Source: Pseudomonas sp. Q1-7 (GTDB lineage Bacteria; Pseudomonadota; Gammaproteobacteria; Pseudomonadales; Pseudomonadaceae). Taken from it: a DNA stretch of 64,000 bases. The notes under the pieces are model-generated. The model was not told where the DNA came from, made no database searches, and saw only the letters and a program-made list of their open reading frames with translations. The first letter of the stretch is position 1. Every line of letters starts with the position of its first letter. Location of the stretch: contig NZ_CP116304.1 in the NCBI RefSeq assembly GCF_028010285.1, positions 5,038,501 to 5,102,500 of the forward strand, in the 5' to 3' direction. Positions 8,360-27,718 of the stretch are shown here, piece after piece. The translations under genes and the position numbers were made by a program.

Positions 8360-8494
8360 GAGACAAGTAAGCACACCTCGATGTACGGCGGGCAGGCGCG
8401 GAGCCGCCCTTAAGATGGCCGCCGTATCCCTTGCATGACGCCCCGGCACGAACGCGCCGGACGCTCCCATGGCTGTAGCAAGGACCTTTTCTCG

Positions 8495-9154
8495 ATGGAT
8501 ACCGAGGCCCCCATGCAGACCCGAATCGTCATTGTCGATGACCACCCGATCACCCTGATCGGCATGCGCTACATGCTCAGCGCGAACCCGGACCTGGACA
8601 TCGTCGGCCAGGCCGAGGACCCCGACGGTCTTCTGAGCCAACTCGAGCAACACCGCTGCGACGTGCTCATCACCGACCTGATGATGCCGGGCGGCGCCCA
8701 GTCCGATGGGCTGCGCCTGATCGACCTGGTGCGCCGTCGCTACCCGCAACTGGCGATCATCGTCGTCACCATGCTCGACAATCCGGCGATGATCGCCGCG
8801 CTGCTCAAGCTGGGCGTCCGCGGGGTGGTCAGCAAGCGCGGCATGCTGGCGGACCTGCCCAAGGCCATCCGCGCCAACGGCCGCCGGCCTTTCCTGTCGC
8901 CCTCCTTGCGGCACCTGATGGATACCGTCGAGGCCGGTTCCGGCAAGCCGTTGGCCCAATTGGAAGCGCTGTCGCCACGGGAAGTGGAAGTGCTGCGCCT
9001 GTACGGCAGTGGCCTGGCCGTCGGCGAAATCGCCGAGCGCCTGGCCCGCAGCAAGCAGACCATCAGCGCGCAGAAGAGCAGTGCGATGCGCAAGCTCGGC
9101 CTGGACACCAACGCCGGGCTTTACCTCTACATCCAGGAAAACGGCCTGGCCTGA
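8495..9154 (+). CDS. LuxR-type response regulator, BvgA/EvgA-like
   Basis: This cytoplasmic regulator of 219 residues has an N-terminal receiver and a C-terminal LuxR/NarL DNA-binding domain. The receiver shows the acidic pair in IVDDHP, the phospho-acceptor Asp61 in VLITDLMMPGG, a VVTM switch segment and Lys in VVSKRG. The helix-turn-helix is LSPREVEVLRLYGSGLAVGE followed by IAERLARSKQTISAQKSSAM. The start is either 8495 (AAGGA 11 bases upstream) or 8513 (GAGG closer); the longer one is given. The next gene is a BvgS-like hybrid kinase 50 bases downstream, so this is almost certainly its phosphorelay output. It would bind the 8346-8359 palindrome if it follows BvgA. Confidence 0.9.
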   Translation: MDTEAPMQTRIVIVDDHPITLIGMRYMLSANPDLDIVGQAEDPDGLLSQLEQHRCDVLITDLMMPGGAQSDGLRLIDLVRRRYPQLAIIVVTMLDNPAMIAALLKLGVRGVVSKRGMLADLPKAIRANGRRPFLSPSLRHLMDTVEAGSGKPLAQLEALSPREVEVLRLYGSGLAVGEIAERLARSKQTISAQKSSAMRKLGLDTNAGLYLYIQENGLA

Positions 9155-9204
9155 GCCAGCCCCCATGTCGGCGGAGCGATCGACTCCGCCACCAGGAACC
9201 GTCC

Positions 9205-12200
9205 ATGCTCCCCATACTTCTCCGCTTGCCACGCCTGGCCGGCCTGTGCCTGATGCTGGGCCTGGTGCCGGTCGCCCGGTGCGACGATGCGTCCGCGCCG
9301 CGACTCCCGACCCTTGCCGAACTGGTGGACATGCGCCAGGCACTGCCGGCCCACCCGCTGCGGGTCAGCCAGATCCTCCCCTCGCCGACGATCCCGGCGA
9401 GCCGGGGCAACGATGGCCTGGATGGCATTACCCGCGACTACCTCGACGTGATCAGCGACTTCCTCGACCTGCCCCTCGAAGAAGTGCCCTATACCTCGGT
9501 GGAAGACGCCATCGAGGGGCTGCGCACCGGGGAGATCGACATCCTGACGCGCGCCACCGGCTTCGAGCTGGATCAGCCGGGGCTGGCCGGCAGCCTCCCG
9601 TACCTGGACAACGAGCCCATCATCGTCGGCCGTGGCGATGACAACAGCCTGTCGCCGGACCTCAACGGCAAGCGCGTCGCCCTGCTCGACCATTACGCCA
9701 GTCTCGGCGCCGCGCGCCACGCTTTCCCCCACGCCGAGGTCGAGACGGTGCGCAGCACCGCCGAGGGCCTTCGGCGCCTGGCCGAGGGCCGCGTGGATGC
9801 TTTCATCGGCGACACCCTGCGGGCCGGTTTCGAGATGCGCGCCCACCCGCACCTGGGCCTGCAGAACAAGTTCGCCGCCAACCTGCCGTCACCGGGATTT
9901 GCCTTCGCCACGCGAGACGACAACCGCACGCTGCTGGCGCTGATCGACCATGTGCTGGCCACCACGCCGCCGGAGCGGCGCGACGCGATCCGCGATCGCT
10001 GGACCCGCTCCGGCGGCCTCTTCGCGCCGACCGGCCCCTTCGCCCTCACCCCCCGCGAGCGCGACTGGCTGGCACGGCACGACAGCCTCACGCTGATCGC
10101 CCAGGAGTTGCCGCCTTACCTCTACCGAACCCGTGACGGCCAGTGGACGGGCCTCAGCGTGAACATCCTGCGCAGCCTGACCGATGCCTTCGCACTGCGC
10201 CTGGACATCCTCGACAGCCAGTCCCCGGCGCTCGACCGGGAGTGGCTGGAACAGGACCGGGCCCAGGTCGCCACCAGCCTGCTGGCGGACGCCGTAGCGT
10301 GGCGCGGCATGGCCACCACCGACCCCTTCAGCGTGCAGAGCTGGACCTTCATCGTTCGCGAGCAGGCCAGCTCGCCCAGCTCCCTGGAAGCCATGCACGG
10401 GCGCCGCCTGGTGTTGCCGGGCAACCACCCGTTGCGCGCCTACGTCGAGCAACGCTATCCGGACATCGAACTGGTGCACACCGATACCATCGAAGAGTCG
10501 CTGCAACTGCTGGCGAACGGCCGCGCCGATGCGTCCCTGGCGACGCCCCAGGGCGCCGATCGCCACCGGCGCTGGCTGAGCAGCCACGGGCTGCGCGCCG
10601 GCCAGCGGATCGAGGCCATGCCCCAGCCGCAGATGTTCGTCATCAGCCCGGGGAGCCCGGAGCTGCTGGGCATCCTCAACAAACTGCAGAACTCCCTGGA
10701 ACTGCCCGGAGAAACCGGCAACCGACTCCGGCTGCTGGCCGATACGCGCCACGAAAGGAGCCTGTGGGACAGCCTGCCCGGCTGGTTCTGGCAGTCGGCG
10801 CTGCTGGTGCTGGTCATTGCCGGGCTGTCAATGCTGTGGAACTGGCGCCTGCGCCACCAGGTGCGCCAGCGCCGCATCGCGCAGAACCAGTTGAGCGACC
10901 AGTTGGCCTTCCAGTTCTCCCTGCTCAACGGCCTGCCGACGCCGCTCTACGTGCGTGACCTGGAGGGCCGACTGAGCACCTGCAACCGCGCCTACGAGCA
11001 GTTCTTCGGCAGCTCCCTGGAAGAGCTGCGCGGCACCACGCCACTGGAGCAGGGCATGGAACCCCACAGCCAGGCGCTGGAACTCCAGCAGGCGTATGCG
11101 TGCCTGCTGGAGGACCGCCAGCCGCGCTTCCTCGACTGCTGCATCGAAGTGCGCGGTCAGCGGCATGACCTCTACCAGTGGCTGGTGCCCTTCTACAGCG
11201 CACGCGGCAAGCTGCAGGGCCTGCTCGGCGGCTGGATCGACATCAGCGACCGCAAGCAACTGGAGGACCAGTTGCGCGAAGCCCGGCAGACGGCCCTGGA
11301 AGCCAGCGCGGCAAAAGGCAAGTTCCTCGCCACCATGAGCCACGAATTGCGCACGCCGCTGAACGCCCTGGTCGGCCTGCTGGAACTGGAAACCGCCGGC
11401 CCTGGCCGAACCTCGGAGAACCTGCGCATCGCCCAGCAGTCGGCGCATTCGATGATCGACCTGATCGGCAACATCCTCGACCTGGACAAGATCGAGACCG
11501 GGCAGATGCAACTGGCCCCCCAGCCCACGTCACTGGAACCGCTGCTGCGGGGCAGCCTGGAGCTGTTCGCCGCCCAGGCACGGGAAAAGGGTCTCGCGCT
11601 CGAACTGGACTACCCGCTGGCCACTGATCGCCGCTACCGGCTGGACCCGCTGAAACTGCGTCAGGTGCTGCACAACCTGCTGGGCAACGCGCTGAAGTTC
11701 ACTGCCCGGGGCCACGTGACCCTGGGTGTGACCGAGCGCGAGACGGAGCCTGGCCAAAGCCTGTTGACCTTCCAGGTGAGCGACAGCGGCATCGGCATTC
11801 CCCGGGATATCCAGCCGCGCATCTTCGAGCCGTACCTGCAGGCCCACGCCGAGGTGGCTCACCTGTACGGTGGTTCCGGCCTCGGCCTGAACATCTGCCA
11901 CCGGCTGGTGGAGCTGATGGGTGGGCGCATCTGGCTGGACAGCGACCCCGGCCAGGGCTGCCGCGTCAGCTTCGAAATTCCCCTCGAACAGGCCCCGGAC
12001 GACGCCGCCCAGCCTGCCCTCACCGAGCAAAGAGCGACGCCAGCCGCCAGCGCGCTCAAGGTCCTGATCGTCGACGACGTGTCCACCAACGGCCTGGTCC
12101 TGCAGCAACAGCTGGCCAGCCTCGGCCACCAGGGCACCTTCGTCTGCAGCGGCGAGGCCGCCCTGCAAGCCTGGGAAGACGGCGACTTCGACGTGCTGAT

Positions 12201-12771
12201 CAGCGACTGCAACATGCCCGGCATGGACGGCTACGCCCTGGCCCGCGCCGTGCGGGCGCAAGAGCGGACACAGGGCCTCGAACCGCGACGCATCATCGGC
12301 TACACCGCCAGCGCGCTGGCCGACGAAGCGGCCCGCTGCCACGCAGCCGGCATGGACGAACTGATGATCAAGCCGGTGACCCTGGCCCGGCTGGACGAGG
12401 TCCTGGGCGACGCCCCGCTGCCGCAGGCCGCCGCCGCGGGCTTCGACCTGTCCCACCTCGAAGGCCTGCAGGGCGCCGACCCCGCCTTGCTGGCGCGACT
12501 GCTCGGCGAACTGCGCGGCAACCTGCTGCAGGAGCGCAACAGCTTGCTCGCTCCCCTGCCGGTGAACAATCCGCAGGCCATCGGCCAACGGGTGCACCGC
12601 TTGGGCGGCCTTGCCTGCACCATCGACGCGCCAGGCCTGATGCGCGCCTGCACCGACCTGCAGGTGGCCATGGAACAGGGCCCCGCCGCCCTGCACGAAC
12701 AGCAGGCGCGCCTGCTGGACACCCTCGACGGCTTGCTGCGCGACATCGAGGCGCGACTCGCCCAGCGCTGA
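9205..12771 (+). CDS. BvgS/EvgS-like hybrid sensor kinase
   Basis: This 1188-residue inner-membrane sensor has the full unorthodox layout. There is a signal peptide (1-26), two tandem periplasmic Venus-flytrap (SBP_bac_3) domains at about 45-265 and 285-505, a transmembrane helix at about 528-547, and a PAS domain at about 570-680 (PTPLYVRDLEGRLSTCNRAY). The histidine kinase has His713 in the ATMSHELRTPLNAL box and N/G boxes NLLGNALKF, GIGIPRDI and GGSGLGLNICH. A receiver follows with Asp1001 in ISDCNMPGMDG, then an HPt domain with His1131. The HPt motif reads HRLGG where most HPt domains have HxLKG. Two flytraps suggest sensing of small periplasmic ligands. It is coupled to the response regulator upstream. 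Confidence 0.93.
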   Translation: MLPILLRLPRLAGLCLMLGLVPVARCDDASAPRLPTLAELVDMRQALPAHPLRVSQILPSPTIPASRGNDGLDGITRDYLDVISDFLDLPLEEVPYTSVEDAIEGLRTGEIDILTRATGFELDQPGLAGSLPYLDNEPIIVGRGDDNSLSPDLNGKRVALLDHYASLGAARHAFPHAEVETVRSTAEGLRRLAEGRVDAFIGDTLRAGFEMRAHPHLGLQNKFAANLPSPGFAFATRDDNRTLLALIDHVLATTPPERRDAIRDRWTRSGGLFAPTGPFALTPRERDWLARHDSLTLIAQELPPYLYRTRDGQWTGLSVNILRSLTDAFALRLDILDSQSPALDREWLEQDRAQVATSLLADAVAWRGMATTDPFSVQSWTFIVREQASSPSSLEAMHGRRLVLPGNHPLRAYVEQRYPDIELVHTDTIEESLQLLANGRADASLATPQGADRHRRWLSSHGLRAGQRIEAMPQPQMFVISPGSPELLGILNKLQNSLELPGETGNRLRLLADTRHERSLWDSLPGWFWQSALLVLVIAGLSMLWNWRLRHQVRQRRIAQNQLSDQLAFQFSLLNGLPTPLYVRDLEGRLSTCNRAYEQFFGSSLEELRGTTPLEQGMEPHSQALELQQAYACLLEDRQPRFLDCCIEVRGQRHDLYQWLVPFYSARGKLQGLLGGWIDISDRKQLEDQLREARQTALEASAAKGKFLATMSHELRTPLNALVGLLELETAGPGRTSENLRIAQQSAHSMIDLIGNILDLDKIETGQMQLAPQPTSLEPLLRGSLELFAAQAREKGLALELDYPLATDRRYRLDPLKLRQVLHNLLGNALKFTARGHVTLGVTERETEPGQSLLTFQVSDSGIGIPRDIQPRIFEPYLQAHAEVAHLYGGSGLGLNICHRLVELMGGRIWLDSDPGQGCRVSFEIPLEQAPDDAAQPALTEQRATPAASALKVLIVDDVSTNGLVLQQQLASLGHQGTFVCSGEAALQAWEDGDFDVLISDCNMPGMDGYALARAVRAQERTQGLEPRRIIGYTASALADEAARCHAAGMDELMIKPVTLARLDEVLGDAPLPQAAAAGFDLSHLEGLQGADPALLARLLGELRGNLLQERNSLLAPLPVNNPQAIGQRVHRLGGLACTIDAPGLMRACTDLQVAMEQGPAALHEQQARLLDTLDGLLRDIEARLAQR

Positions 12772-12977: not shown

Positions 12978-14483
12978 ATGATCCTCTCCACCCGTACCCG
13001 GAGCCTGCGCAAACTGCCGCTGGCCATCGCCATCGGTCTGACCGCCCTGGCCAGCCAGCAAGCCTTTTCCCACGGCTATGTCGAAAGCCCGAAATCCCGC
13101 GCCCTCATGTGCTCGGCCAGCGGCGGCAGCCTGAACAAGGACTGCGGTTCCGTCACTTACGAGCCGCAGAGCATCGAGTACGCACCCGGCGTCAACCACC
13201 ACCACAACGGTGCCTACTGCGCCGATGACTTCCGCAGCTGCGGCCCGGCCGACGGCACCATCGCCGCAGGCGGTATCGCCAACTTCGCTCAGCTGAACGA
13301 GCAGTCCGCCACCCGCTGGCAGAAGACCACCATCAAGCCGGGCATGAACGAGTTCGCCTGGAAGTACACCGCCGGTCACTCCTCGGCCTATTACCAGTTC
13401 TACATCACCAAGAAGGACTGGAACCCGAACCAGCCGCTGACCCGCGATTCCTTCGAGCTCACCCCCCTGCTGCATGAAGATGCCGGCGGCAAGCGTCCGG
13501 AATCCGGCAGCAACACCAAGCACAAGGTGAACATCCCCGCCGACCGCAGCGGCTACCACGTGATCCTCGCCACCTGGAAGATCGGCGACACCGCCGCCAC
13601 CTTCTACCAGGCCATCGACGTGAACATCGACAACGACGGCGCCCCGGCTCCGGAGTGGAACATCATCGGTGCGGTCCAGCCCGAGCAGCTGCAGATCGGC
13701 GACAAAGTGATGACCCGCGTCTTCACCAACGCCGGCGAGCAGGCCGGTCGCCAGACACTGCTGAGCATCGACACCGCCGAACAGGCCCAGGCCAACACCT
13801 GGCCCTTCCTGCTGGCGCAGAAAGCCAACCAGGCCAACGCCGGCTACCAGATGGGCCAGCTGAACGCCGACGGTGAAGTGGTTCCGAACTACGGCACCAA
13901 CAACGTCTACACCAAGGCCGACAGCGATGTCGTACGCGTGGAAATCCAGAAGGAGCAGCCGAGCGTTCCGGGCGAACTGAGCCTCACCGGCCTGCAGGAC
14001 AGCTACACCCTGAAGGACGGCGCCGCCGACCTGCACTTCAACGCCATCGCCCAGGGCGGCAAGTACACCATCGACGCCACCGTGTTCAACGGCAAGGGCG
14101 AGAGCGTTGCCTACCAGCAGGGCCAGGCCGGCAATAACACCCCGCACTTCCACATGCCGCTGCGCGGCATGACCGAAGGCGGTTACGACCTGGTGGTCGT
14201 GGCCAAGCCGGAGAAAGGCGAGCTGCTGCAGCAGACCCACCACTTCACCCTGGAAGCCGAGGACAACGGCGGCGGCGAAGGCGGCAACGGCGACTACGAC
14301 TTCGTCTTCCCCGATGGCCTGAAGAGCTACAAGGCCGGCACCAAGGTCCTGGCGAAGGACGGCAACACCTACGAGTGCAAGCCGTTCCCGTACAGCGGCT
14401 ACTGCATCCAGTGGAGCGCGGGCGCCAACCACTACGAGCCGGGTGTCGGCTCCAACTGGCAAGACGCCTGGATCCGCAAGTAA
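12978..14483 (+). CDS. gbpA: secreted chitin-active LPMO, GbpA-like (AA10 plus binding modules)
   Basis: The 501-residue protein is a copper-dependent lytic polysaccharide monooxygenase of family AA10 that attacks or binds chitin outside the cell. The signal peptide is cleaved before His32 (AFS/HGYVESP), which supplies the N-terminal histidine of the copper brace; His134 in YTAGHSSAYY is the second. The AA10 domain spans about 32-210. Two GbpA-type middle domains follow to about 425, then a glycine-rich linker (DNGGGEGGNGD) and a C-terminal chitin-binding module at about 450-501 with YECKPFPYSGYCIQW. The architecture and length fit Vibrio GbpA (about 485) better than the shorter CbpD of P. 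aeruginosa. The type II secretion operon downstream is its likely exporter. Confidence 0.92.
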   Translation: MILSTRTRSLRKLPLAIAIGLTALASQQAFSHGYVESPKSRALMCSASGGSLNKDCGSVTYEPQSIEYAPGVNHHHNGAYCADDFRSCGPADGTIAAGGIANFAQLNEQSATRWQKTTIKPGMNEFAWKYTAGHSSAYYQFYITKKDWNPNQPLTRDSFELTPLLHEDAGGKRPESGSNTKHKVNIPADRSGYHVILATWKIGDTAATFYQAIDVNIDNDGAPAPEWNIIGAVQPEQLQIGDKVMTRVFTNAGEQAGRQTLLSIDTAEQAQANTWPFLLAQKANQANAGYQMGQLNADGEVVPNYGTNNVYTKADSDVVRVEIQKEQPSVPGELSLTGLQDSYTLKDGAADLHFNAIAQGGKYTIDATVFNGKGESVAYQQGQAGNNTPHFHMPLRGMTEGGYDLVVVAKPEKGELLQQTHHFTLEAEDNGGGEGGNGDYDFVFPDGLKSYKAGTKVLAKDGNTYECKPFPYSGYCIQWSAGANHYEPGVGSNWQDAWIRK

Positions 14484-14502
14484 CCCTTAACGCAGCCAGA
14501 AA

Positions 14503-14532
14503 GAACGTGGCGCTTCGGCGCCACGTTCGTTT
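14503..14532 (+). terminator. strong hairpin with TTCG tetraloop after the LPMO gene
   Basis: Arms GAACGTGGCGC and GCGCCACGTTC form a perfect 11-bp stem closed by a TTCG tetraloop, followed by GTTT. It starts 20 bases after the LPMO stop and 42 bases before the b561 start. The LPMO can thus be transcribed much more strongly than the secretion genes, with read-through supplying them. Confidence 0.8.
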
Positions 14533-14544
14533 CAGGGAATCGCC

Positions 14545-15060
14545 ATGACTCTCCAACCCTACTCGAAGCCACGCCGCGCACTGCACTGGTGCTTCGCCGT
14601 GGTCATCATCTGGGCCACCGTCAGCGGCTTCGTCAATGCCCTGGCGGACCTGCCCGAGGCCGTCCACGACGCCATCGCCTTCGTCAACGTTTCGCTCACC
14701 ACCCTGCTGATCCCACTGTTCGGCCTGCGCCTGTACTACGCCCTGGCCCACCCCGCGCCGCACGATACGCTGCATGGCAGCCAGGCCGCGCACCTGCTGG
14801 CCCAGGCCGGCCACCTGGCGCTCTACGTGAGCATCGCCGTGGTGCTGCTGACGGGTGTGCTGATGATGGATCGCCCGATCAGCGTGTTCGATCTGGTGGT
14901 GTTCCCCCAGCCCTTCGACGAGCCGGTGCTCATCGAGTTCTTCAACCTTGTCCATCGCTATAGCTGCGCGGCACTCGCCTTGCTGGTGGCCGGTCACATC
15001 CTGGCGGTGGTGATCCACCAACTGAGCGGCCGCAACGTGCTCAAGCGCATGGTGGCGTGA
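14545..15060 (+). CDS. cytochrome b561 family membrane protein
   Basis: This 171-residue four-helix inner-membrane protein is of the bacterial cytochrome b561 (CybB) type. The conserved haem-ligand histidines are visible in ALHWCF, in the HDAIAF helix, in GHLALYVS and in HRYSCAALALLVAGHI. Family members move electrons across or along the membrane between quinols and small acceptors. The position is unusual: it lies between a secreted copper LPMO, which needs an electron donor, and gspC, whose ATG comes 5 bases after this stop. Expression with the secretion operon is therefore certain if one transcript is made. A role in feeding electrons to the LPMO or the periplasm is an inference. Confidence 0.85.
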   Translation: MTLQPYSKPRRALHWCFAVVIIWATVSGFVNALADLPEAVHDAIAFVNVSLTTLLIPLFGLRLYYALAHPAPHDTLHGSQAAHLLAQAGHLALYVSIAVVLLTGVLMMDRPISVFDLVVFPQPFDEPVLIEFFNLVHRYSCAALALLVAGHILAVVIHQLSGRNVLKRMVA

Positions 15061-15065
15061 CCACC

Positions 15066-15626
15066 ATGAAACGCGCCCTCCCCGCACTGGCCCGGTTGTC
15101 CCTGCAGCGTTGCCTGCTGCCCGCTGGCGTCGCCGGACTGTGCGCCTGGCTGGGCTGGCTCGGCCTGGACGGCTGGCGCTACCAGCAGGCTGTCGCCGCT
15201 CAGGTCGAACAGGCCGCCGCCGCGCCGCCCAAGGTGCAGCAGCCCCACACCCGACCGGACGACCGGAGCATCGCCGAACTGTTCGGCGCCGTGCCGCCGG
15301 CACCGGTCGAGGCGCTCCAGCGCGCCGTGCCGCTGACCCTGCTGGCCAGCCTCGCCGAAAGCCAGGCCACCGCCTCCCGCGCACTGATCCAGTCCCCGGA
15401 GGGCAGCGTTTTCTACAGGCTCGGTGATCGCCTGCCCGGCGGCGCCCAGCTCAAGAGCGTGCAGGCCGACCACGTGGTGATCCAGTTGGGTGGCCGCGAA
15501 CACATCCTGCGCTTCGCCCGCTCGCAGGACCGCCTGCTGGTGCCGCGACCGGCCGCCAGCCCCGACCCACTCGCCGGAACCACCGGCCAGGGCGTATCGC
15601 CCTCGCCCGCGGAGACAACGCCATGA
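15066..15626 (+). CDS. gspC: type II secretion protein GspC (HR domain only)
   Basis: This 186-residue bitopic inner-membrane protein has an N-terminal cytoplasmic tail, one helix (LLPAGVAGLCAWLGWLGL) and a periplasmic homology-region domain at about 85-155 (PLTLLASLAESQATASRALI, then SVFYRLGDRLPGGAQLKSV). GspC links the inner-membrane platform to the secretin. Usual GspC/XcpP proteins of 230-290 residues add a PDZ or coiled-coil segment at the C-terminus. Here a short Pro-rich tail takes its place. An upstream in-frame GTG at 15057 overlaps the b561 stop; the ATG at 15066 is preferred. The stop overlaps the gspD start. Confidence 0.82.
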   Translation: MKRALPALARLSLQRCLLPAGVAGLCAWLGWLGLDGWRYQQAVAAQVEQAAAAPPKVQQPHTRPDDRSIAELFGAVPPAPVEALQRAVPLTLLASLAESQATASRALIQSPEGSVFYRLGDRLPGGAQLKSVQADHVVIQLGGREHILRFARSQDRLLVPRPAASPDPLAGTTGQGVSPSPAETTP

Positions 15627-17515
15627 ACCTGACCCGAATCACCGCTGCCCTGCTGATGCTCGGCACTCTGCTTTCCCCGTTGCCGACCCTGGCCGCCAAG
15701 GGCGCCGAACGCCAATGGACCCTGAACATGAAGGACGCCGAGCTGCGCGACCTGGTCAGCGAGGTCGGCGAGATCACCGGCAAGACCATGGTCCTGGACC
15801 CGCGCATGAGCGGGAAGGTGACGGTGCAGTCATCCTCCGCCATGGACCAGGATGGCATCTACTCGCTGTTCCTCACCGTGCTGCGCAGCCAGGGCTACGC
15901 GGCGCTCGACCAGGGCGATCGCGTGCTGATCGTGCCGGTGGCCGACGCCAAGACCAAATCCAGCGAGCAGTCCGGCGACGAGTTCGTCACCGAAGTGCTC
16001 GCCCTGCACAACGCCACCTCCAGCGAAGTGGCCGCCGTGGTGCGCCCGCTGGTGGCGCCGGACGCCTATGTGGCGCCGTCGGCCAGCTCCAACGCACTGG
16101 TGGTAACCGACAGCCTCAGCAACGTCGAACGCATCCGCCAGGTGGTCCGCGAGCTGGACAGCGCCGGCAGCCGCGCCTTCTCCACCCTGGAGCTCAAGCA
16201 CGCCTGGGCCATGGACGTGGCCAAGACCCTGACCGACAGCGTCACCCAGAACGGCACCGGCCCGAGCAGCGCCAAGGCCATCGGCGATGCCCGCAGCAAC
16301 CGCGTGATCCTCGTCGGCTCGTCCCAGGCCCGCCAGCAGATGGCCGAACTGGCCAGATCCCTCGACGTGCCCGGCAGCGCCAATGACAGCGCCCGCGTCG
16401 TGCGCCTGCACCACAGCGACGCCAAGCAGTTGGAAGAGCTGCTCAACGGCATCGGCAAGCGCATGGACGGCGGCCGCGGCAAGGACGGCGCCACACAGGG
16501 CGGCGGCGTGCTGGTCAGCGCCGACAAGAGCCAGAACGCCCTGGTGCTGATGGCCGAGCCGGCGCAACTGGCGATGCTCGACAAGGTCATCGGCGAACTC
16601 GACCGTCCACGCGCCCAGGTGCTGGTGGAAGCGGCCATCGTCGAGGTCAGCGGCGACATCAACGAAGCCCTCGGCGTGCAGTGGGCGGCCGGCGGCAAGC
16701 ACGCGGCGGGCGGCACCCACTTCGGCAATACCGGCCTGTCCATCGGCACCCTGCTCAACCGCGAGCCGGGCACACTGCCGAGCCTGCCGGACGGCGCCAT
16801 CATCGGCCTGGGCAGCAGCAACTTCAGTGCGCTGATCACCGCCCTGTCCAGCGACTCCAACAACAACCTGCTGTCCACGCCGAGCCTGCTGACCCTGGAC
16901 AACGAGGCCGCGGAAATCCTCGTCGGCCAGAACGTGCCCTTCCAGACCGGCTCCTACACCACCGACACCGCCGGTGCCAGCAACCCCTTCACCACCGTGG
17001 AGCGCAAGGACGTGGGCATCACCCTCAAGGTGACCCCGCACATCAACGAAGGCGACTCGCTGCGTCTGAAGGTGGAGCAGGAGAGCTCCGAGCTGGCCAC
17101 CGCGCCGGCCGGCGTCAGCACCAGCGACGTGATCACCAACAAGCGCGCGGTGAAGAGCACCATCCTCGCCGACGACGGCCAGATCATCGTGCTCGGCGGC
17201 CTGATCAAGGACAACGTCAAGACCCAGGTGAGCAAGGTGCCGCTGCTGGGCGACATCCCCCTGCTGGGCCGCCTGTTCAGCAGCACCAAGGAGATCAACG
17301 AGAAGACCAACCTGATGGTCTTCCTGCGCCCGACCCTGCTGCGCGACAGCGCCGACGGCCGCGACGTCAGCACCCGCAAGTACAACGACCTGCGCCAGAT
17401 GCGTTCGGCCAGTGGCGCCGCCAACAAGCTCCTGCTGCCCAGCGACCAGCGCGGCCTGTTCGACGCCAGCGCCAGGGACGAGGTCGTCGACATGCGCAAG
17501 GAAGAGCGCCCATGA
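15623..17515 (+). CDS. gspD: type II secretion secretin GspD
   Basis: The 630-residue outer-membrane secretin forms the export channel as a multimer. After the signal peptide ([15 protein letters not shown]) come the N0 domain at about 30-100 ([20 protein letters not shown]), three KH-like N domains to about 320, and the secretin core with [35 protein letters not shown], the gate region near [12 protein letters not shown] and the signature [17 protein letters not shown] short C-terminal tail may serve as a pilotin-binding region, but no pilotin gene is adjacent. Length is in the normal range. The gene overlaps gspC by 4 bases and gspE by 4 bases. Confidence 0.96.
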
Positions 17516-18996
17516 CGCCGGTCACCCGCCTGCCGTTCAGCTATGCCCGGCGCCATGGCGTGCTGCTGGAGCCCGGCGCCGACGGCCCGATCCTCTACTG
17601 CCGCGACGATGCGCCGCTGGAAATCCTCGCCGAGGTGCGCCGCCACTGCGGTGCCCCGCTGCGCGCCCGGGTGCTGGACGAGGACGCCTTCGCCCAGCAA
17701 CTGGCCGGCCACTACCGCGACGGCCAGGGCGACGCCATGCAGATGGCCGAGGGCCTGGGCGAACAGATCGCCGGCCAGGACGACCTGGCCAGCCTGGCCG
17801 AGCAGTTGCCGCAGACCACCGACCTGCTGGAGCAGGAAGACGACGCACCGATCATCCGCCTGATCAACGCCATCCTCGGCGAGGCGGTGAAGGCCAAGGC
17901 TTCGGACATTCACCTGGAAACCTTCGAGCAGCACCTCTCGGTGCGCCTGCGGGTCGACGGCCTGCTGCGCGAAGTGCTCCGTCCCCGGCGCGAACTGGCG
18001 GGGCTGCTGGTGTCGCGGATCAAGGTCATGGCCAAGCTGGACATCGCCGAGAAGCGCATTCCCCAGGACGGCCGCATCGCCCTGCGCATCGCCGGCCACG
18101 AAGTGGACGTGCGCGTGTCCACCCTGCCCTCGGCCCACGGCGAGCGGGTGGTGATGCGCCTGCTGGACAAGCAGGCCGGGCGCCTCGACCTTGCCCGCCT
18201 GGGCATGGCCGCGGCCACCCGCGAGCGCCTGGAAGGCGCCCTGCACCGCCCCCACGGGATCATCCTGGTCACCGGCCCCACCGGCTCGGGCAAGACCACC
18301 ACCCTCTACGCGGGCCTCGCCAGCCTCAACAGCCTGACCCGCAACATCCTCACCATCGAAGACCCGGTGGAGTACCACCTGCCCGGCATCGGCCAGACCC
18401 AGGTCAACACCAAGGTGGACATGACCTTCGCCCGCGGCCTGCGCGCCATCCTGCGCCAGGACCCGGACGTGGTGATGGTGGGCGAAATCCGCGACCGCGA
18501 GACCGCCGAAATCGCCGTGCAGGCGTCCCTCACCGGCCACCTGGTGCTGTCCACCCTGCACACCAACAGTGCCATCGGCGCCGTCACCCGCCTGGTGGAC
18601 ATGGGTGTCGAGCCCTTCCTGCTCTGCACCTCGCTGCTCGGCGTACTCGCCCAGCGCCTGGTGCGGGTGCTCTGCCCGGACTGCAAGGCGGCCGCCCCCG
18701 CCGACGCCGCCGCCTGCGGCCACCTCGGCCTGGACCCGGAGGCAGCGCCGCTGCTGCACCACCCGGTGGGCTGCCCGAATTGCCAGAACAGCGGCTATCG
18801 GGGCCGCCAGGGCATCTACGAGCTGGTGCTGTTCGACGAGCGCCTGCGCCAGTTGATCCACGAAGGCGCTGGCGAGGCCGCCCTTACCCGCCACGCCCGC
18901 CAGCACGGCCACAGCCTGTTCGCCGATGGCCGCGACAAGGTGCTGCAAGGCACCACCAGCCTCGAAGAATTGCTGCGCGTCACCCGGGAGGATTGA
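17512..18996 (+). CDS. gspE: type II secretion ATPase GspE
   Basis: This 494-residue hexameric cytoplasmic ATPase drives pseudopilus assembly. The N1/N2 domains (residues 1-120) bind the GspL cytoplasmic domain. The core shows Walker [11 protein letters not shown] with Lys261, the Asp box [10 protein letters not shown], Walker [13 protein letters not shown] and the His box [16 protein letters not shown] tetracysteine zinc site (CPDC with CPNC near residues 390-425) is intact, as expected for GspE rather than PilT. The start is ATG 17512, which overlaps the gspD stop (ATGA). Everything needed for activity is present. Confidence 0.96.
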
Positions 18997-18998
18997 GC

Positions 18999-20207
18999 AT
19001 GGCCGCCTTCGAATACCTCGCCATGTGCGGCGCCGGGCGCAAGAGCCGGGGCGTGCAGGAAGCCGACAGCGAACGCCAGGTGCGCCAGATGCTGCGCGAG
19101 CGCAACCTGATCCCGCTGCAGGTCAAGCCGGCGCGGGGCAGCCGCCGCCAGGGCGCCGCGACTTCCGCCCGCGGCCTCGGCCCGGCCGAACTGGCGCTGC
19201 TGACCCGTCAGTTGGCCACCCTGGTGCAGGCCGCCCTGCCGCTGGAGGAAGTGCTGGCGGCGGTGGCCGCCCAATGCGAGAAACGCAGCCAGCAGAGCAT
19301 GGTGCTGGCGATCCGCGCCCGCGTGCTGGAGGGCCATGGCCTGGCCCGCGCGATGGCCGACTTTCCCCGTGCCTTCCCACCGCTGTACCGCGCCACCGTG
19401 GCCGCTGGCGAGCGCGCCGGCCACCTCGGCCAGGTGCTGCTGCAACTGGCCGACTACACCGAGGCGCGCCAGGCCGCACGCCAGCAGATCCAGTTGGCCA
19501 TGCTCTACCCGAGCATCCTGCTGCTGGCAGCCTTTGGCATCGTCGGATTCCTGCTCGGCTTCGTGGTGCCGGACGTGGTCAAGGTGTTCGTCGACAGCGG
19601 CCAGGAGCTGCCCGCCCTGACCCGAGGCCTGATCGCCAGCAGCGCCGCCCTGCGCGACTACGGCCTGCTCCTGCTGGTGCTGCTCGCCGCGCTCGGCGGC
19701 GCGGCGCGGCTGGCGCTGCGCAAGCCGGCCTTGCGCTTGCGCTGGCACCGCGCGCAATTGCGCATTCCGGTGGTCGGCAAGGTGATCCGCGCAAGCAATT
19801 GCACCCGCTTCATCAGCACCCTGGCGATCCTCGGACGCAGCGGCGTGCCCCTGGTGGACGCGCTGGAGATCGCCGCCGAGGTGGTGGCCAACCAGCAGAT
19901 TCGTACGGGTCTGAAAGACGTGGCGCGCGCAGTGCGAGAAGGTGGCGGCCTGACCCGGGCACTGGAGCAGAGCGGCCACTTCCCGCCGATGATGCTCTAC
20001 ATGATCGCCAGCGGTGAGCGCTCCGGCGAGCTGGATTCCATGCTCGACCGCGCCGCCCGCCAGCAGGAAGCGCAACTGGCCAACCGCATCGCCATGCTGG
20101 TGGGCCTGTTCGAGCCGGCCATGCTGGTGTTCATGGGCGCCAGCGTGCTGCTCATCGTGCTGGCGATCCTGATGCCCATCCTCAGCCTCAACCAACTCAT
20201 CACCTGA
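18999..20207 (+). CDS. gspF: type II secretion inner-membrane platform protein GspF
   Basis: This 402-residue polytopic protein has two T2SSF cytoplasmic domains (about 65-190 and 265-390) and three membrane segments, including ILLLAAFGIVGFLLGFVVPD near residue 170-190 and AMLVFMGASVLLIVLAILM at the C-terminus. Typical motifs are LALLTRQLATLVQAALPLEE in domain 1 and NCTRFISTLAILGRSGVPLV in domain 2. It is thought to couple GspE to the pseudopilus. The ATG lies 2 bases after the gspE stop with a GGAGGATTG ribosome site. Confidence 0.95.
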   Translation: MAAFEYLAMCGAGRKSRGVQEADSERQVRQMLRERNLIPLQVKPARGSRRQGAATSARGLGPAELALLTRQLATLVQAALPLEEVLAAVAAQCEKRSQQSMVLAIRARVLEGHGLARAMADFPRAFPPLYRATVAAGERAGHLGQVLLQLADYTEARQAARQQIQLAMLYPSILLLAAFGIVGFLLGFVVPDVVKVFVDSGQELPALTRGLIASSAALRDYGLLLLVLLAALGGAARLALRKPALRLRWHRAQLRIPVVGKVIRASNCTRFISTLAILGRSGVPLVDALEIAAEVVANQQIRTGLKDVARAVREGGGLTRALEQSGHFPPMMLYMIASGERSGELDSMLDRAARQQEAQLANRIAMLVGLFEPAMLVFMGASVLLIVLAILMPILSLNQLIT

Positions 20208-20222
20208 CAGATAGGCATTGGC

Positions 20223-20651
20223 ATGCAACAGCAACAACGGGGTTTCACCCTGATCGAAATCATGGTGGTCGTGGTCATTCTCGGGGTGCTCGCCGCCCTG
20301 GTGGTGCCGCAGATCATGAGCCGGCCCGACCAGGCCAAGGTCACCGCCGCGCAGAGCGACATCAAGGCCATCGGCATGGCGCTGGACATCTACAAACTCG
20401 ACAACCACAGCTACCCGAGCACCCAGCAGGGCCTCGACGCCCTGGTGAGCAAGCCGTCCGGCACCCCGCAGGCGCGCAACTGGAACCCCGACGGCTACCT
20501 CAAGCGCCTGCCCGTCGACCCTTGGGGCAACGCCTACCAGTACCTCGCGCCGGGCAGCGAGGGCAACGCCTACGACCTGTTCTCCTTCGGTGCCGACGGT
20601 CGCGCCGGCGGTGAAGGCCTGAACGCCGACATCGGCAACTGGGGCCTCTGA
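20223..20651 (+). CDS. gspG: type II secretion major pseudopilin GspG
   Basis: This 142-residue major pseudopilin has a short 7-residue leader ending in Gly before FTLIEIMVVVVILGVLAALV. The Glu at position 5 of the mature protein is present and the site is cut and methylated by a prepilin peptidase. The C-terminal calcium-binding type domain (YPSTQQGLDALV, LKRLPVDPWGNAYQYL, YDLFSFGADG) is standard. No prepilin peptidase gene lies in this window, so PilD from the type IV pilus locus is presumably shared. It lies 15 bases after gspF. Confidence 0.96.
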   Translation: MQQQQRGFTLIEIMVVVVILGVLAALVVPQIMSRPDQAKVTAAQSDIKAIGMALDIYKLDNHSYPSTQQGLDALVSKPSGTPQARNWNPDGYLKRLPVDPWGNAYQYLAPGSEGNAYDLFSFGADGRAGGEGLNADIGNWGL

Positions 20652-20652
20652 G

Positions 20653-21144
20653 ATGCGACGTCGAGCGGCAGGCTTCACCTTGCTGGAAGTGCTGGTGGTG
20701 ATCCTCGTGATCGGCCTGTTCGTCGGCCTCACCTCGCTGGTGCAGGGCGACACCGGCGGCCAGCAGGCACGCCGCGAAGCCGAACAGCTGCGCGGCCTGA
20801 TCGGCCTGCTGCGCGAGGACGCGCTGCTCAACCGGCAGGCGTTCGGCCTGCGCATCGACCCCGAGCGCTACCAGGTGCTGCGCCTGGACGAGGAAGGCAC
20901 CTGGCAGCCGGCACCCGGCTACCGGGAACAGCGCCTGCCGGACAGCCTGCGACTGCGCCTGGAGCTGGACGACGAAACCGCCGGCCTCGGCGACGCCGGT
21001 CGCCGGCCCATGCCGCAGTTGCTGGTACAGCCCAGCGACGAGGTATCGCCCTTCACCCTGCTGGTGGAATACCGGATGACCCCGGTCCTGTCGCTGGCCA
21101 GCGACGGCCTGGAGGAGGTGCGCCTTGAACCGGTCGAACCCTGA
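20653..21144 (+). CDS. gspH: type II secretion minor pseudopilin GspH
   Basis: The 163-residue minor pseudopilin has the leader RRRAAG before FTLLEVLVVILVIGLFVGLT and the conserved Glu5. The remainder fits the GspH beta-sandwich (AEQLRGLIGLLREDALLNRQ, FGLRIDPERYQVLRLDEEG). Its ATG follows the gspG stop by one base. The 3' end overlaps gspI by 20 bases. Confidence 0.9.
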   Translation: MRRRAAGFTLLEVLVVILVIGLFVGLTSLVQGDTGGQQARREAEQLRGLIGLLREDALLNRQAFGLRIDPERYQVLRLDEEGTWQPAPGYREQRLPDSLRLRLELDDETAGLGDAGRRPMPQLLVQPSDEVSPFTLLVEYRMTPVLSLASDGLEEVRLEPVEP

Positions 21145-21505
21145 ACAACGCGGCTTCACCCTACTGGAAGTGATGGTCGCCCTGGCCATCTTCGCCACCC
21201 TGTCGGTGGCCCTCTACAGCGCGGCCCAGCATGTCGCCGGCAACAGCGCCGGCCTCACCGAACGCAGCCTGGCCCAATGGCTGGCGGACAACCGCCTCAA
21301 CGAACTGCGCGCACGCATGAAGACGGCCGCCACCGGCCACGCCGAAGAACGCATCGCCTTCGCCGGGCGCGACTGGCTACTGGAAAGCGAGATCGGCCCA
21401 GCGCCGGACCCGCAGCTGCTCAAAGTCAGCCTGGCGGTGAAGGTGGACGCTGCCCGGCCGGTGCGCCGCGCGCAACTGGTGGGCTTCATCGAGGCGCGGC
21501 CATGA
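21125..21505 (+). CDS. gspI: type II secretion minor pseudopilin GspI
   Basis: The 126-residue minor pseudopilin starts at TTG 21125, chosen because GGAGGAGGTG lies 3-12 bases upstream and no ATG fits. The leader NRSNPEQRG is followed by FTLLEVMVALAIFATLSVAL with Glu5. The LAQWLADNRLNELRAR helix is characteristic of GspI. It forms the pseudopilus tip with GspJ and GspK in known systems. Overlap with gspH (20 bases) and gspJ (4 bases) indicates coupled translation. Confidence 0.9.
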   Translation: MNRSNPEQRGFTLLEVMVALAIFATLSVALYSAAQHVAGNSAGLTERSLAQWLADNRLNELRARMKTAATGHAEERIAFAGRDWLLESEIGPAPDPQLLKVSLAVKVDAARPVRRAQLVGFIEARP

Positions 21506-22101
21506 CCCAGCGCGGCTTCACCCTGCTGGAAGTGCTGATCGCCATGGCGTTGTTCAGCCTGCTCGGCCTGGCCTGCTACCAGTTGCTGGAGCGGGTGACC
21601 CACAGCGAGAAGCGCATCGCCCTGCACGAGCAGCAGCTACGACAACTGCAGCGGGCACTGGGCCTCTTCGAGCAGGACCTGGCCCAGGCCATCGCCTACC
21701 CGCTGAGCGACGACCCCAGCCGGCGCCAGGCGCTGATCGGCCGCGCCGACGGCCTGCGCCTGGTGCGCGGCGGCTGGAGCAATCCGTTGCAGCAGCGACG
21801 CGGCGAGGTGCTGGAGATCCGCCATGACTGGAGCGACGGCCAGTGGCTGCGCGAGTACCGCGGCCAGCCGGGACGCGAGCTGGAAAACAGCGAAAGCCAT
21901 GCGCAACGCCTGCTGGACGGCGTCACCCTGAAGCGCCTGCGCTACATCGACCACGAAGGCCGCTCCTACGGCGGCTGGCCGGTCGGCAGCTCGCCGCTGA
22001 GCCTGCCCCAGGCACTGGAACTGGAGCTGGACGTGCCCGGCTACCCGGACATCCGCCGCGTCGTCCTGCTGCCCGGATACCCCGGAGCGGACGATGCCTG
22101 A
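21502..22101 (+). CDS. gspJ: type II secretion minor pseudopilin GspJ
   Basis: The 199-residue tip pseudopilin has a very short leader (MTQRG) before FTLLEVLIAMALFSLLGLAC with Glu5. The body shows LFEQDLAQAIAYPLSDDPSR and LRYIDHEGRSYGGWPV, in line with GspJ. The ATG overlaps the gspI stop (ATGA). It overlaps gspK by 8 bases. Confidence 0.9.
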   Translation: MTQRGFTLLEVLIAMALFSLLGLACYQLLERVTHSEKRIALHEQQLRQLQRALGLFEQDLAQAIAYPLSDDPSRRQALIGRADGLRLVRGGWSNPLQQRRGEVLEIRHDWSDGQWLREYRGQPGRELENSESHAQRLLDGVTLKRLRYIDHEGRSYGGWPVGSSPLSLPQALELELDVPGYPDIRRVVLLPGYPGADDA

Positions 22102-22969
22102 AGTTCGGACGCAACGGGGCGTGGCGCTGATCAGCGTGCTGCTGATCACCGCCCTGGTCACCCTGATCGTCAGCGACATGCTCGCCCGCCAGCGCCTCGC
22201 CGTCGCCAGCAGCGCCAACCAGCTCGCCCATCGGCAGCTCTGGCAACTGGCCCTGAGTGGCGAGGCCTGGGCCCGCCAGCAATTGCTCGCGGACCTGCGC
22301 GAGGCAGACAGCCTCAAGCGCGTGCACCTCGCCCAGCGCTGGGCCCAGGGCCCCCAGGCGTTCGACATCGAGGGCGGGCATATCCGCATCCAGCTGGAAG
22401 ACCTCAGCGGCCGCTTCGACCTCAACACCCAGCGCCCCGGCGGCGACCGTACCCAGCGCGCCCGCTATCAGCGCCTGCTGGCCCACCTGGAGCTGCCCGC
22501 CCATGACCCGGCGAGCCTGCCGGTGCGCTTCGCCAACGACGGCAAGCCGCTGCCCTTCGCCGACAGCAGCGAGCTGATGCGCCTGGAGCCGCTGGACGCC
22601 GCCGGCCTGCGCCGGCTACAGCCCTGGCTACGCACCACGGAGGGCGCGCTGAACCTGAACACCGCCCCGGCCGAAGTGCTGGCCGCCCTCGAAGGGCTCG
22701 ACCCCGGCGTCGCCCGGGCCATCGTGCAGGCACGGCCGGCCGAGGGCTACGAAAGCGTCCAGGCGTTCATCGAGCAGCCCCTGCTGCAGGATCGCCAGGT
22801 CCGCTCCCTGGGCCTGGGCGTCACCAGCGAATACTTCCGCGCGACCCTCGATGTCGAGCTGGGCGGACGCCGCCTACGCCTGATCAGCGACCTGCACACC
22901 AGCCTCGAAGGCCGGGTGAGCGTCCTGCGCCGCATCCTCGCCGCCCCCGTCCCCACCATTCCGGAGTAA
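22094..22969 (+). CDS. gspK: type II secretion minor pseudopilin GspK
   Basis: This is the 291-residue large tip pseudopilin. The leader ends TQRG before VALISVLLITALVTLIVSDM. As usual for GspK, the Glu5 of the other pseudopilins is absent. The SAM-like repeat domain includes LNLNTAPAEVLAALEGLDPG and VARAIVQARP near residues 195-220. Residues LEDLSGRFDLNTQ are also typical. The C-terminus ends close to the gspL start. Confidence 0.9.
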   Translation: MPEVRTQRGVALISVLLITALVTLIVSDMLARQRLAVASSANQLAHRQLWQLALSGEAWARQQLLADLREADSLKRVHLAQRWAQGPQAFDIEGGHIRIQLEDLSGRFDLNTQRPGGDRTQRARYQRLLAHLELPAHDPASLPVRFANDGKPLPFADSSELMRLEPLDAAGLRRLQPWLRTTEGALNLNTAPAEVLAALEGLDPGVARAIVQARPAEGYESVQAFIEQPLLQDRQVRSLGLGVTSEYFRATLDVELGGRRLRLISDLHTSLEGRVSVLRRILAAPVPTIPE

Positions 22970-22974
22970 CCCAC

Positions 22975-24063
22975 GTGCAAGCCTGGCTCTACCTCAGCAC
23001 CCCCGCGCCGGCCGACGGCGACTGGCCATTGACCTGGTGGCGAACCGGCGGCGATGCCGTCCAGGGCGACCTGGTGCAAGCCGCCGCCGACCTGGCCGGC
23101 CTCGAACTGACCCTGCTGCTGCCGGCGGAAGCCGCCAGCCACCACGAAATCGACGTGCCCGCGCGCAGCGGCCGCTGGCTGCGCCAGGCGATCCATTCGG
23201 CGCTGGAAGACAAGCTGCTGGACGACCCGGACAACCTGCACCTGGTGCAGGGTCCGCTGCGCGAGCGGCGCCACTGCCGGCTGTTCGTGCTCAAGCGCGA
23301 TTGGCTGGGGCAAGTGCTGGAACGCCTGGCCGGCCACGGCCTGGTCCCCGCGCGCGTCCACATCGACGCCGACTGCCTGCCGGCCGATCGCCCCCTGGCG
23401 CTGTTCTGCGCCGGTCGTTGGCTGATCGGCGGCGCGTTGCCGCAACGCCTGGCGCTGGGCGCCGACGACCTGGCCGACCTCAAGGGACGGCTGCCGGCGG
23501 CGCTGGACTGGCGCGAGGACACCCCCTGGGCGCTGCTGGCAGAAGGTTCGCGGCAGGCACTCGACCTGCGCACCGGCGAGTTCGCCCTGCGCCCCCGGCG
23601 GCGCGTGCCCTGGCGCGGCCTGGCGCTGCTGGTGGCCCTGGGCCTCGCCGCGCAACTGGTGCATGACGTCGGCAATCGGCTGCTGCTGGAACAACGCACC
23701 GCTGCCCTGGCCCAGGACAACCTGGCCACCTGGCAGCAGCGTTTTCCCGACCAGGGCCGGGTGGTCGACCTGGCCCGTCAGGTGCGGGCGCGGCAGCAGC
23801 AGGCCGGTCAATCCGACCTCGGCCTGGCCCACCGCCTGGACAACCTGGCGCGGCTCTGGAAATCCAGCGGCGGCGGCCTGGCCGAGGTCGGCCGCCTCGA
23901 CTACCAGGCGGGCGAAGGCTGGACCCTGCGGGTCAGCGCGCCCGCCTTCGCCGACATCGAACGCCTGCGCGAAGGCCTGGTGCGCCAGGGCCGTATCGTG
24001 CTGTCCGACTCCGCCGTGCGCGAAGCCGATGGCGTCAGCGCACGCCTGCAAATAAAGGACTGA
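22975..24063 (+). CDS. gspL: type II secretion protein GspL
   Basis: This 362-residue bitopic protein recruits GspE to the membrane. The cytoplasmic actin-like domain spans about 1-215 (AGLELTLLLPAEAASHHEID, and a WLRQAIHSALEDKLLDDP helix). One membrane helix follows (GLALLVALGLAAQLVHDVG), then a periplasmic ferredoxin-like domain at about 270-362. The GTG start has GGAG 6-9 bases upstream and lies 5 bases after gspK. The sequence is more divergent than those of GspD-G, as is usual for this subunit. Confidence 0.88.
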   Translation: MQAWLYLSTPAPADGDWPLTWWRTGGDAVQGDLVQAAADLAGLELTLLLPAEAASHHEIDVPARSGRWLRQAIHSALEDKLLDDPDNLHLVQGPLRERRHCRLFVLKRDWLGQVLERLAGHGLVPARVHIDADCLPADRPLALFCAGRWLIGGALPQRLALGADDLADLKGRLPAALDWREDTPWALLAEGSRQALDLRTGEFALRPRRRVPWRGLALLVALGLAAQLVHDVGNRLLLEQRTAALAQDNLATWQQRFPDQGRVVDLARQVRARQQQAGQSDLGLAHRLDNLARLWKSSGGGLAEVGRLDYQAGEGWTLRVSAPAFADIERLREGLVRQGRIVLSDSAVREADGVSARLQIKD

Positions 24064-24066
24064 ACC

Positions 24067-24540
24067 ATGCCGACTCTGATCCACCCCCTTCGCCAACAGT
24101 GGCAACGCCTGCCCCAACGCGAACAGCAGGCGCTGCTGGCGCTGGGCCTGTTCCTCGGCCTGGTGCTGGCCTGGCTGCTGCTCTGGCAACCGCAGAAGCA
24201 GGCCCTGGAGGCTGCCGAACGGCGTTACCAGGATGAATTGCAGTTGCGGCAGGACCTGCGCAGCCTGCCGGCGGCCGGCGCCGCGACACAGGGCGAGCGC
24301 GTCGACGCCTCGGCGTTGCCGGGCTTCCTGGCGCGAACCAGTGCCAACGCCAACCTGACCATCGAACGCATGGACAACGACGGGCCGGGGCGCATGAACC
24401 TCAGCCTGGAGGGCAGGCTGGACAGCCTGGTGGCCTGGCTGGAACGCCTGGAGGCCAGCGGCGTGAACGTGACCGCGCTGGGCCTGGAAGTGAGCCCGGA
24501 GGCCGACGCGAAGGCGCGTCTGGCGCTGGAAGCCGGCTGA
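24067..24540 (+). CDS. gspM: type II secretion protein GspM
   Basis: This 157-residue bitopic protein partners GspL. It has a short cytoplasmic N-terminus, one helix (ALLALGLFLGLVLAWLLLW) and a periplasmic ferredoxin-like domain at about 75-157 (LPGFLARTSANANLTIERMD and LVAWLERLEASGVNV). It is the last gene of the gspC-M run. No gspN and no gspO follow, because the convergent yhhQ gene ends 3 bases after this stop, without an obvious terminator between. Confidence 0.88.
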   Translation: MPTLIHPLRQQWQRLPQREQQALLALGLFLGLVLAWLLLWQPQKQALEAAERRYQDELQLRQDLRSLPAAGAATQGERVDASALPGFLARTSANANLTIERMDNDGPGRMNLSLEGRLDSLVAWLERLEASGVNVTALGLEVSPEADAKARLALEAG

Positions 24541-27184: not shown

Positions 27185-27718
27185 CTATTCCGTCCTCGAC
27201 TTGCGCCGCCCGGTGACCATGGACCAGGGCAGGTTCTCGCGCAGGCGCACGCTTTCCACCAGCGCGGCGCCGACGTGCAGGCAGGCCAGGGCGAACAGGC
27301 TGTCGGCCATGAAGACATGGATATCGCGGGGCAGGTCCTCGCCCCAGAAATAGTCAATCTCTTCCATCAGGAAGCCGGTGACGCCCAGGCCGGCCATCAA
27401 CAGCAGCATGAGGATCATCACCAGCCCGCCCAGCGGCGAATGGCCCAGGCGGTGCAGGTGGCCGCCGCCGAGCAGGAGCCTGGCGTGGGCCAGCAGACGG
27501 GTCGGGCGCGGCCAGAAGTCGGCCCAGCGCGCCGGCACGGGCCCGACGAAGCCCCAGGCCACACGCACCAGCACCACCGCCACGGCGTAATAGCCCAGCC
27601 AACGGTGCCAGCCGTCACCCGCCTCGTTGAGGAAGTAATCGCCGATGAAGGCGACCACCAGGGACCAGTGGCCGATCCGCACCACCGGGTCCCAGAGGCG
27701 AACGGTTCCAGCGCTCAT
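27185..27718 (-). CDS. b-type cytochrome (b561/hydrogenase cytochrome b-like)
   Basis: The 177-residue membrane protein has four helices with haem-ligand histidines in RIGHWSLVVAFIGDYF, GDGWHRWLGYYAVAVVLVRV and ALACLHVGAALVES. It matches the cytochrome b/b6-domain group (COG3658-like) that receives electrons from soluble or membrane partners. It is the second gene of a two-gene operon with a small exported PepSY protein 3 bases upstream. Such pairs in proteobacteria often occur with c-type cytochromes, but none is present here. The acceptor is unknown. Confidence 0.82.
   Translation of the reverse strand: MSAGTVRLWDPVVRIGHWSLVVAFIGDYFLNEAGDGWHRWLGYYAVAVVLVRVAWGFVGPVPARWADFWPRPTRLLAHARLLLGGGHLHRLGHSPLGGLVMILMLLLMAGLGVTGFLMEEIDYFWGEDLPRDIHVFMADSLFALACLHVGAALVESVRLRENLPWSMVTGRRKSRTE

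Follow-up and report, generated by a model that had tools for sequence, protein, structure and literature searches.

A stretch of 64,000 nucleotides from the genome of Pseudomonas sp. Q1-7 (contig NZ_CP116304.1, forward-strand positions 5,038,501 to 5,102,500; hereafter the window, numbered from its first letter) was analysed with respect to genes for a lytic polysaccharide monooxygenase (LPMO), a cytochrome of the b561 family and a type II secretion system (T2SS). A first-pass annotation of this DNA had placed the LPMO, the cytochrome b561 and gspC-M in one run, and this order proved real, with the LPMO gene at 12978-14483, the b561 gene at 14545-15060 and gspC-M at 15057-24540, all on the + strand and with exact coordinates. 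A TtsR/TtsS-like gene pair at 8435-12771, omitted from that annotation, adjoins the LPMO gene upstream, and a Vut_1 transporter gene on the opposite strand ends the run at 24544. The features are as follows.

8435..9154, + strand: LuxR-type response regulator, TtsR-like (Response_reg 7.3e-22, GerE 1.2e-10; same position in the PA7 locus)
9205..12771, + strand: hybrid sensor kinase with SBP_bac_3 sensor, TtsS-like (SBP_bac_3, PAS, HisKA, HATPase_c, Response_reg)
12978..14483, + strand: GbpA/CbpE-type AA10 LPMO (LPMO_10, GbpA_2, GbpA_D3; NCBIfam GbpA equivalog)
14484..14544, + strand: strong hairpin without a T-run between the LPMO and b561 genes (-28 kcal/mol, z -4.37)
14545..15060, + strand: b561-family cytochrome, Asn48 replacing CybB His45 (PF01292 2e-22)
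15057..15626, + strand: gspC, start GTG 15057 or ATG 15066 (T2SSC 3.2e-13)
15623..17515, + strand: gspD secretin (TIGR02517 521.5 bits)
17512..18996, + strand: gspE ATPase (TIGR02533 685.8 bits)
18999..20207, + strand: gspF, 402 residues (frame reading; matches gspF of the Xcp-like T2SS of the same genome, 510 bits)
20223..20651, + strand: gspG major pseudopilin (Pfam, NCBIfam)
20653..21144, + strand: gspH (TIGR01708 84 bits)
21125..21505, + strand: gspI (Pfam, NCBIfam)
21502..22101, + strand: gspJ (TIGR01711 115.4 bits; start set by locus comparison)
22094..22969, + strand: gspK (T2SSK 2.1e-17)
22975..24063, + strand: gspL (T2SSL 8.3e-20, GspL_C)
24067..24540, + strand: gspM (T2SSM 2.7e-24)

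The gspC, D, E and G-M genes were assigned with Pfam, and C-E and G-J by NCBIfam as well. An open reading frame at 18926-20017 was rejected as gspF on account of its wrong frame and lack of a family match, the true gspF being 18999-20207. Overlaps between gsp genes, said to occur throughout, were found with the chosen starts at five of the ten junctions (C/D, D/E, H/I, I/J and J/K), but the other five (E/F, F/G, G/H, K/L and L/M) have gaps of 1-15 bases with the starts as taken here. The description of the system as self-contained does not hold, as the sole Peptidase_A24 match of the genome lies outside the run.

The LPMO scored 3.7e-42 against LPMO_10 and 616.5 bits against the NCBIfam GbpA equivalog (cut-off 481), and GbpA domains 2 and 3 (GbpA_2, GbpA_D3) are present. 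Both histidines of the copper brace expected of a GbpA-like LPMO, His32 and His134, are in place; together with Phe209 they are conserved in 48/48 LPMOs of the family, and cleavage of the signal peptide would fall directly before His32. No other LPMO_10 match was found in the source genome, which is a single contig of 5.78 Mb.

The original paper on Txc, CbpE and TtsSR of P. paraeruginosa PA7 is reportedly that of Cadoret in 2014. In PA7, Txc is encoded by PSPA7_1407-1417, CbpE by 1419 and a two-component system by 1420-21 (PMC12369383). As these numbers are already assigned, PSPA7_1418 would by position be the b561 gene; it is not named in the literature searched, most subscription journals lying outside that search. 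TtsSR is a positive regulator of txc and cbpE, and CbpE leaves the cell via Txc (PMC8623646). Gene order in PA7 (locus L142, NC_009656.1) is identical to that of the window, running from the two-component system through LPMO and b561 to gspC-M, with identities to the window proteins of 77% for the LPMO, 65% for the b561 and 54% for gspC, and the PA7 homologues of the TtsS-like and TtsR-like proteins scored 1457 and 335 bits. In a tree of gspD and gspE (38 rows, quick method, midpoint root; genome G008 was left out as its gspE lay outside its stretch) the window and PA7 fell into one clade of 13 with a Shimodaira-Hasegawa-like approximate likelihood ratio support of 100. The window locus is the known Txc/CbpE secretion system of PA7 type, TtsS/TtsR-like regulators included. 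The pairing of an LPMO with a dedicated T2SS proposed in the first-pass annotation is supported, for a system already known under that name.

A terminator had been placed between the LPMO and b561 genes. The segment at 14484-14544 does fold at -28 kcal/mol (z -4.37; 0/200 shuffles equally low), but it has no T-run and is absent from the terminator-scan sites, and an intrinsic terminator was rejected here. Of 38 loci compared, the window's own included, 37 have a stretch after the LPMO gene with a folding energy of -12 kcal/mol or lower, without a shuffled control; of 39 such stretches one of three bases was left out, and some others were cut at 150 bases. Such a hairpin would be consistent with processing of the mRNA or with attenuation that is partial.

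The b561 protein matches the PF01292 profile (2e-22) and has the four-helix fold, its best fold match being the E. coli superoxide oxidase CybB (5oc0). In CybB, His45 and His137 presumably form the haem 2 pair, an assignment taken from topology. The position of His45 is held by Asn48 in the window protein, and this Asn is invariant in the subfamily (25/25, 51/51 and 79/79 in three alignment sets). The ligand set for two bis-His haems, as in CybB, is incomplete in the window b561 on account of Asn48, which replaces the probable periplasmic-side haem ligand, His137 being retained. H14, H90, H151 and H158 are kept across the subfamily alignment sets, and H90, H151 and H158 correspond to the quinone-site residues His87, His151 and His158 of CybB, His151 also being a ligand of haem 1 (PMC11869295). 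The cytoplasmic-side haem and the quinone site of the window protein look intact from these alignments. No relevant account of Asn as an axial ligand in a bacterial cytochrome b561 was found in the literature searched, with the journal limits given above, so novelty of the Asn signature is left unclaimed. Superoxide is collected in CybB by R30, R35, R38, R108 and K134 (PMC11869295). One of these five is kept in the window b561 (R110), residues 33, 38, 41 and 134 being L, E, H and N, with loop columns approximate in this mapping and K134 placed by offset; across the alignment sets about half of the proteins have Lys at the R38 position, and R110 is nearly invariantly Arg. An ordinary superoxide oxidase was rejected as the identity of the b561 on the grounds of Asn48 and of the single antenna residue kept.

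Two readings follow the CybB likeness further. The b561 might have a protective role in the periplasm, removing superoxide or peroxide that the copper-loaded LPMO generates before export. The fold match lends some weight to this, as does a CCP_MauG di-haem peroxidase gene following one relative that lies apart from LPMO and T2SS genes; with four of the five superoxide-collecting residues replaced, we regard this as doubtful. It is highly improbable, in our estimate, that the Asn48 subfamily has an open, O2-reactive periplasmic haem and runs the CybB reaction in reverse, from ubiquinol to superoxide or H2O2 that would prime and fuel the LPMO during its exit through the T2SS. If true, a bacterial LPMO would have a genetically linked source of fuel that is driven by quinol.

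The genome holds six PF01292 matches, the window b561 and five others. One is a gene at 27185-27718 of the window (- strand, 82.9 bits), 2.6 kb beyond gspM; its protein has His at the Asn48 column, or else is the sole row with Gly there, and does not belong to the Asn48 subfamily.

In order to evaluate the distribution of the module, 398 Pseudomonadaceae genomes were scanned with a threshold of E <= 1e-60 for GbpA-type LPMOs. At most three LPMO and eight gspC best candidates were scored per genome, and for b561 the nine best first-look candidates, so that absences are less sure; in genomes with a GbpA-type LPMO all b561 candidates were scored, making absences there surer. Such an LPMO was found in 48 of the 398 genomes, adjoining gsp genes in 39 and unlinked in 9. 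The order LPMO-b561-gspC was observed in 24 of the 39 LPMO-T2SS loci, which argues against chance and disposes of the possibility, raised with the first-pass proposal to look for it in other genomes, that it is found only here. Among the remaining 15, the b561 gene lies after gspM in G312 and on another contig in G332, and a 63-residue remnant is present at the locus in G386. Subfamily members among the 39 genomes scored 210-257 bits; in the 12 genomes without the subfamily best matches were 46-58 bits, with none at threshold in G229. The 9 genomes whose LPMO is unlinked gave no subfamily member (best 65 bits).

A b561 of at least 200 bits was present in 28 of the 398 genomes, 26 of them within the 39 LPMO-T2SS genomes and 2 within the other 359 (Fisher 7e-29, uncorrected for kinship). 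Ten genomes, none among the 39, form a further subgroup at 169-186 bits; two of these proteins were read and both have Asn. With this subgroup counted, carriers outside LPMO-T2SS genomes number 12 of 359 instead of 2. On the gspD and gspE tree, labelled for b561 between LPMO and gspC (G312 and G332 were scored as none, though they carry the subfamily elsewhere), this position is clustered but often lost or moved. Across the 24 loci, b561 distances correlate with LPMO distances (Spearman 0.78) and with gspD distances (0.64), with 0/2000 permutations as high for either, as is expected from joint descent.

That the b561 is often missing from LPMO-T2SS genomes argues against an essential role in export, and a requirement for it in LPMO export was rejected on the 12/39 natural absences. 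The same twelve genomes bear on the suggestion that the b561 acts in assembling or energising the T2SS. The linkage of the two would agree with such a role, and the question was posed in PMC3521999. We consider it very improbable given these absences. T2SSs in general are not known to contain such a cytochrome subunit, which counts against it as well.

The survey was extended to 84,980 species, each represented by a single genome, which gave 181 b561 relatives, and the best 79 loci were analysed. The b561 gene was linked to both LPMO and T2SS in 61 of these 79, within flanks of at most 10 kb in 57 and with the LPMO just beyond the gsp genes in 4 (three Yersinia, one Pantoea). In five loci that were read directly, the b561, gsp and LPMO genes lie on one contiguous stretch. 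Linked loci occur in Pseudomonas and, with a different order, in Yersinia, Serratia and Pantoea: the order was LPMO-b561-gsp in 53, the b561 followed gspM in 3 and it preceded gsp in 5 Enterobacterales, where the LPMO gene lies after gsp in 4 and further upstream in 1 (Serratia). A tandem pair of GbpA-type LPMO matches precedes the b561 in L034, L035, L143, L146, L150, L154, L156, L157, L158 and L160, in species that include P. otitidis, P. protegens and P. chlororaphis.

The other loci hold orphan b561 genes, and an LPMO_10 gene is present somewhere in 13 of the 18 genomes concerned, as it is in 5/5 of the Enterobacterales genomes with the b561 ahead of gsp. Among the orphans, four from the P. 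fluorescens group (L187, L193, L204 and L210) cluster, with modest supports, with the three b561-after-gspM species on a b561 tree (L173, being short, was left out) and share the downstream flank of those species. From this grouping and flank, the simplest reading for these four is that the module was lost and the b561 stayed. In L193, L187, L204, L210 and L201 the orphan b561 lies just downstream of a shared gene cluster, the adjacent cluster gene in L193 being a uroporphyrinogen decarboxylase by Pfam. In L181 (10517-11983), a Chromatiales metagenome-assembled genome, a CCP_MauG di-haem peroxidase gene follows an Asn-type b561. L178, from Erwinia mediterraneensis, has TtsR- and TtsS-like genes beside the b561, no gsp cluster within 10 kb and no LPMO_10 in the genome.

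Such cases bear on the reading of the b561 as a passenger, or a neighbour at an insertion site, that has its own housekeeping role. Its repeated absence and the persistence of intact orphans, for example in P. lurida beside a uroporphyrinogen decarboxylase gene, would agree with this, and a preferred insertion site was raised in PMC3521999. One fixed site is disfavoured because the place of the gene relative to the gsp cluster (within, ahead of or behind it) changes with lineage while the linkage persists, and 26 of the 28 carriers of at least 200 bits are LPMO-T2SS genomes; we hold a mere passenger to be rather unlikely.

We consider it probable that the window carries a Txc locus exporting its LPMO, and that the b561 is an accessory redox cytochrome serving the same lifestyle and dispensable for secretion. 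A TtsS/TtsR-like two-component system would accompany the T2SS (gspC-M) and the GbpA/CbpE-type LPMO, which this T2SS would export onto chitin-like polysaccharide. The b561 falls into a CybB-like subfamily; as a cytochrome of the inner membrane with a link to quinone, it would most likely take part in redox or reactive-oxygen reactions on the periplasmic side, and would not be needed for LPMO secretion. The genes and their conservation, the Asn and the recurring absences were observed directly, and CbpE export through Txc under TtsSR control is taken from the literature. The b561 haem state, the direction of electron flow and the link to LPMO chemistry are what we infer.

Several observations weigh against this account. 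Twelve of the 39 LPMO-T2SS genomes lack the subfamily, one more (G386) having the remnant alone, and 18 of the 79 loci have neither LPMO nor T2SS within 10 kb of the b561, one of these (L177) lying at a contig edge. The association counts carry no kinship correction, and the position between LPMO and gspC needs at least 7 changes on the gspD and gspE tree (shuffled mean 11.5; 2/500 as low). Finally, the Xcp-like T2SS of the same genome could export the LPMO as well. This further T2SS has gspD-gspC divergent from gspE-M, the Xcp layout. Export of the LPMO by another T2SS of the genome would, according to the first-pass annotation, refute its proposal, and another T2SS does exist; but P. paraeruginosa has Xcp and Hxc too, and its CbpE is attributed to Txc (PMC12369383, PMC8623646). 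The third GspD-N0 match in the genome is weak and corresponds to a secretin-like frame that has no further gsp match within 20 kb.

No clear protein donor to bacterial LPMOs has been identified, and whether they need one at all is likewise not established (PMC10154616). This, the linkage of b561 and LPMO across loci and the conserved quinone-site histidines would suit a dedicated electron supply, in which ubiquinol electrons cross two haems and reach the exported LPMO via a diffusible carrier, as an inner-membrane b561 would be unable to contact it otherwise. We judge such a supply unlikely. The probable periplasmic-side ligand is replaced by Asn48, the 12 genomes that lack the subfamily have LPMOs with the same three copper-site residues, no carrier gene was found among Pfam matches of the scanned run genes and the genome has five other PF01292 matches. 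The first-pass term reduction system is not borne out, given those 12 of 39 genomes, the b561 genes without the module and the altered ligand. No relevant report of an LPMO-b561 electron-donor link was found in the literature searched, most subscription journals again being outside it. A redox partnership of b561 and LPMO is plausible, and what remains is a b561 that would be a facultative redox accessory and may feed, protect or merely accompany the LPMO. The locus itself is ordinary and the cytochrome subfamily modestly interesting: the b561 travels with LPMO and exporter in two bacterial orders, with a probable haem ligand invariably altered and with natural absences, which makes the donor question testable.

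Elsewhere in the window, a PepSY_TM membrane protein gene adjoins a TonB-dependent receptor gene at 4508-8273 (- strand), likely a separate iron-uptake pair, and a selenocysteine tRNA gene lies at 62907-63002 (- strand).

The b561 had been called undescribed, but a link of cytochrome, T2SS and LPMO was printed in 2012: P. aeruginosa and P. putida have a cytochrome b561 gene together with an N-acetylglucosamine-binding protein and a T2SS resembling Yts1, and in Yersinia yts1 is preceded by a cytochrome b gene (PMC3521999). That paper asked whether this reflects a preferred insertion site or a function of the cytochrome, including one for the T2SS, a question for which Asn48 provides a concrete residue. 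Yts1/ChiY of Yersinia enterocolitica likewise links a T2SS, a GbpA-like protein and a cytochrome b gene, but has the cytochrome and regulator before gsp and the GbpA-like gene after, a PclR regulator, and yts1O and yts1S (PMC3521999). The LcoA-BcnA case of a lipocalin-linked cytochrome b561 is similar in that a b561 gene is linked to one for an envelope or exported partner (PMC9113575). The partner there is another, and no YceI lipocalin was found among Pfam matches of the scanned window-run genes. Cbp2D of Cellvibrio japonicus is likewise a candidate bacterial protein donor to LPMOs; it has c-type domains and a carbohydrate-binding module, whereas the window b561 is a b-type membrane protein (PMC8981238). 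E. coli CybB (5oc0) shares the fold, the four helices and the His87, His151 and His158 equivalents with the window b561, but differs in His45, which is Asn48 here, and in the antenna, which is mostly lost (PMC11869295). PA7 Txc shares gene order and tree clade with the window locus; it belongs to another species, the three proteins compared are 54-77% identical, and export by the window system is predicted from the genes.

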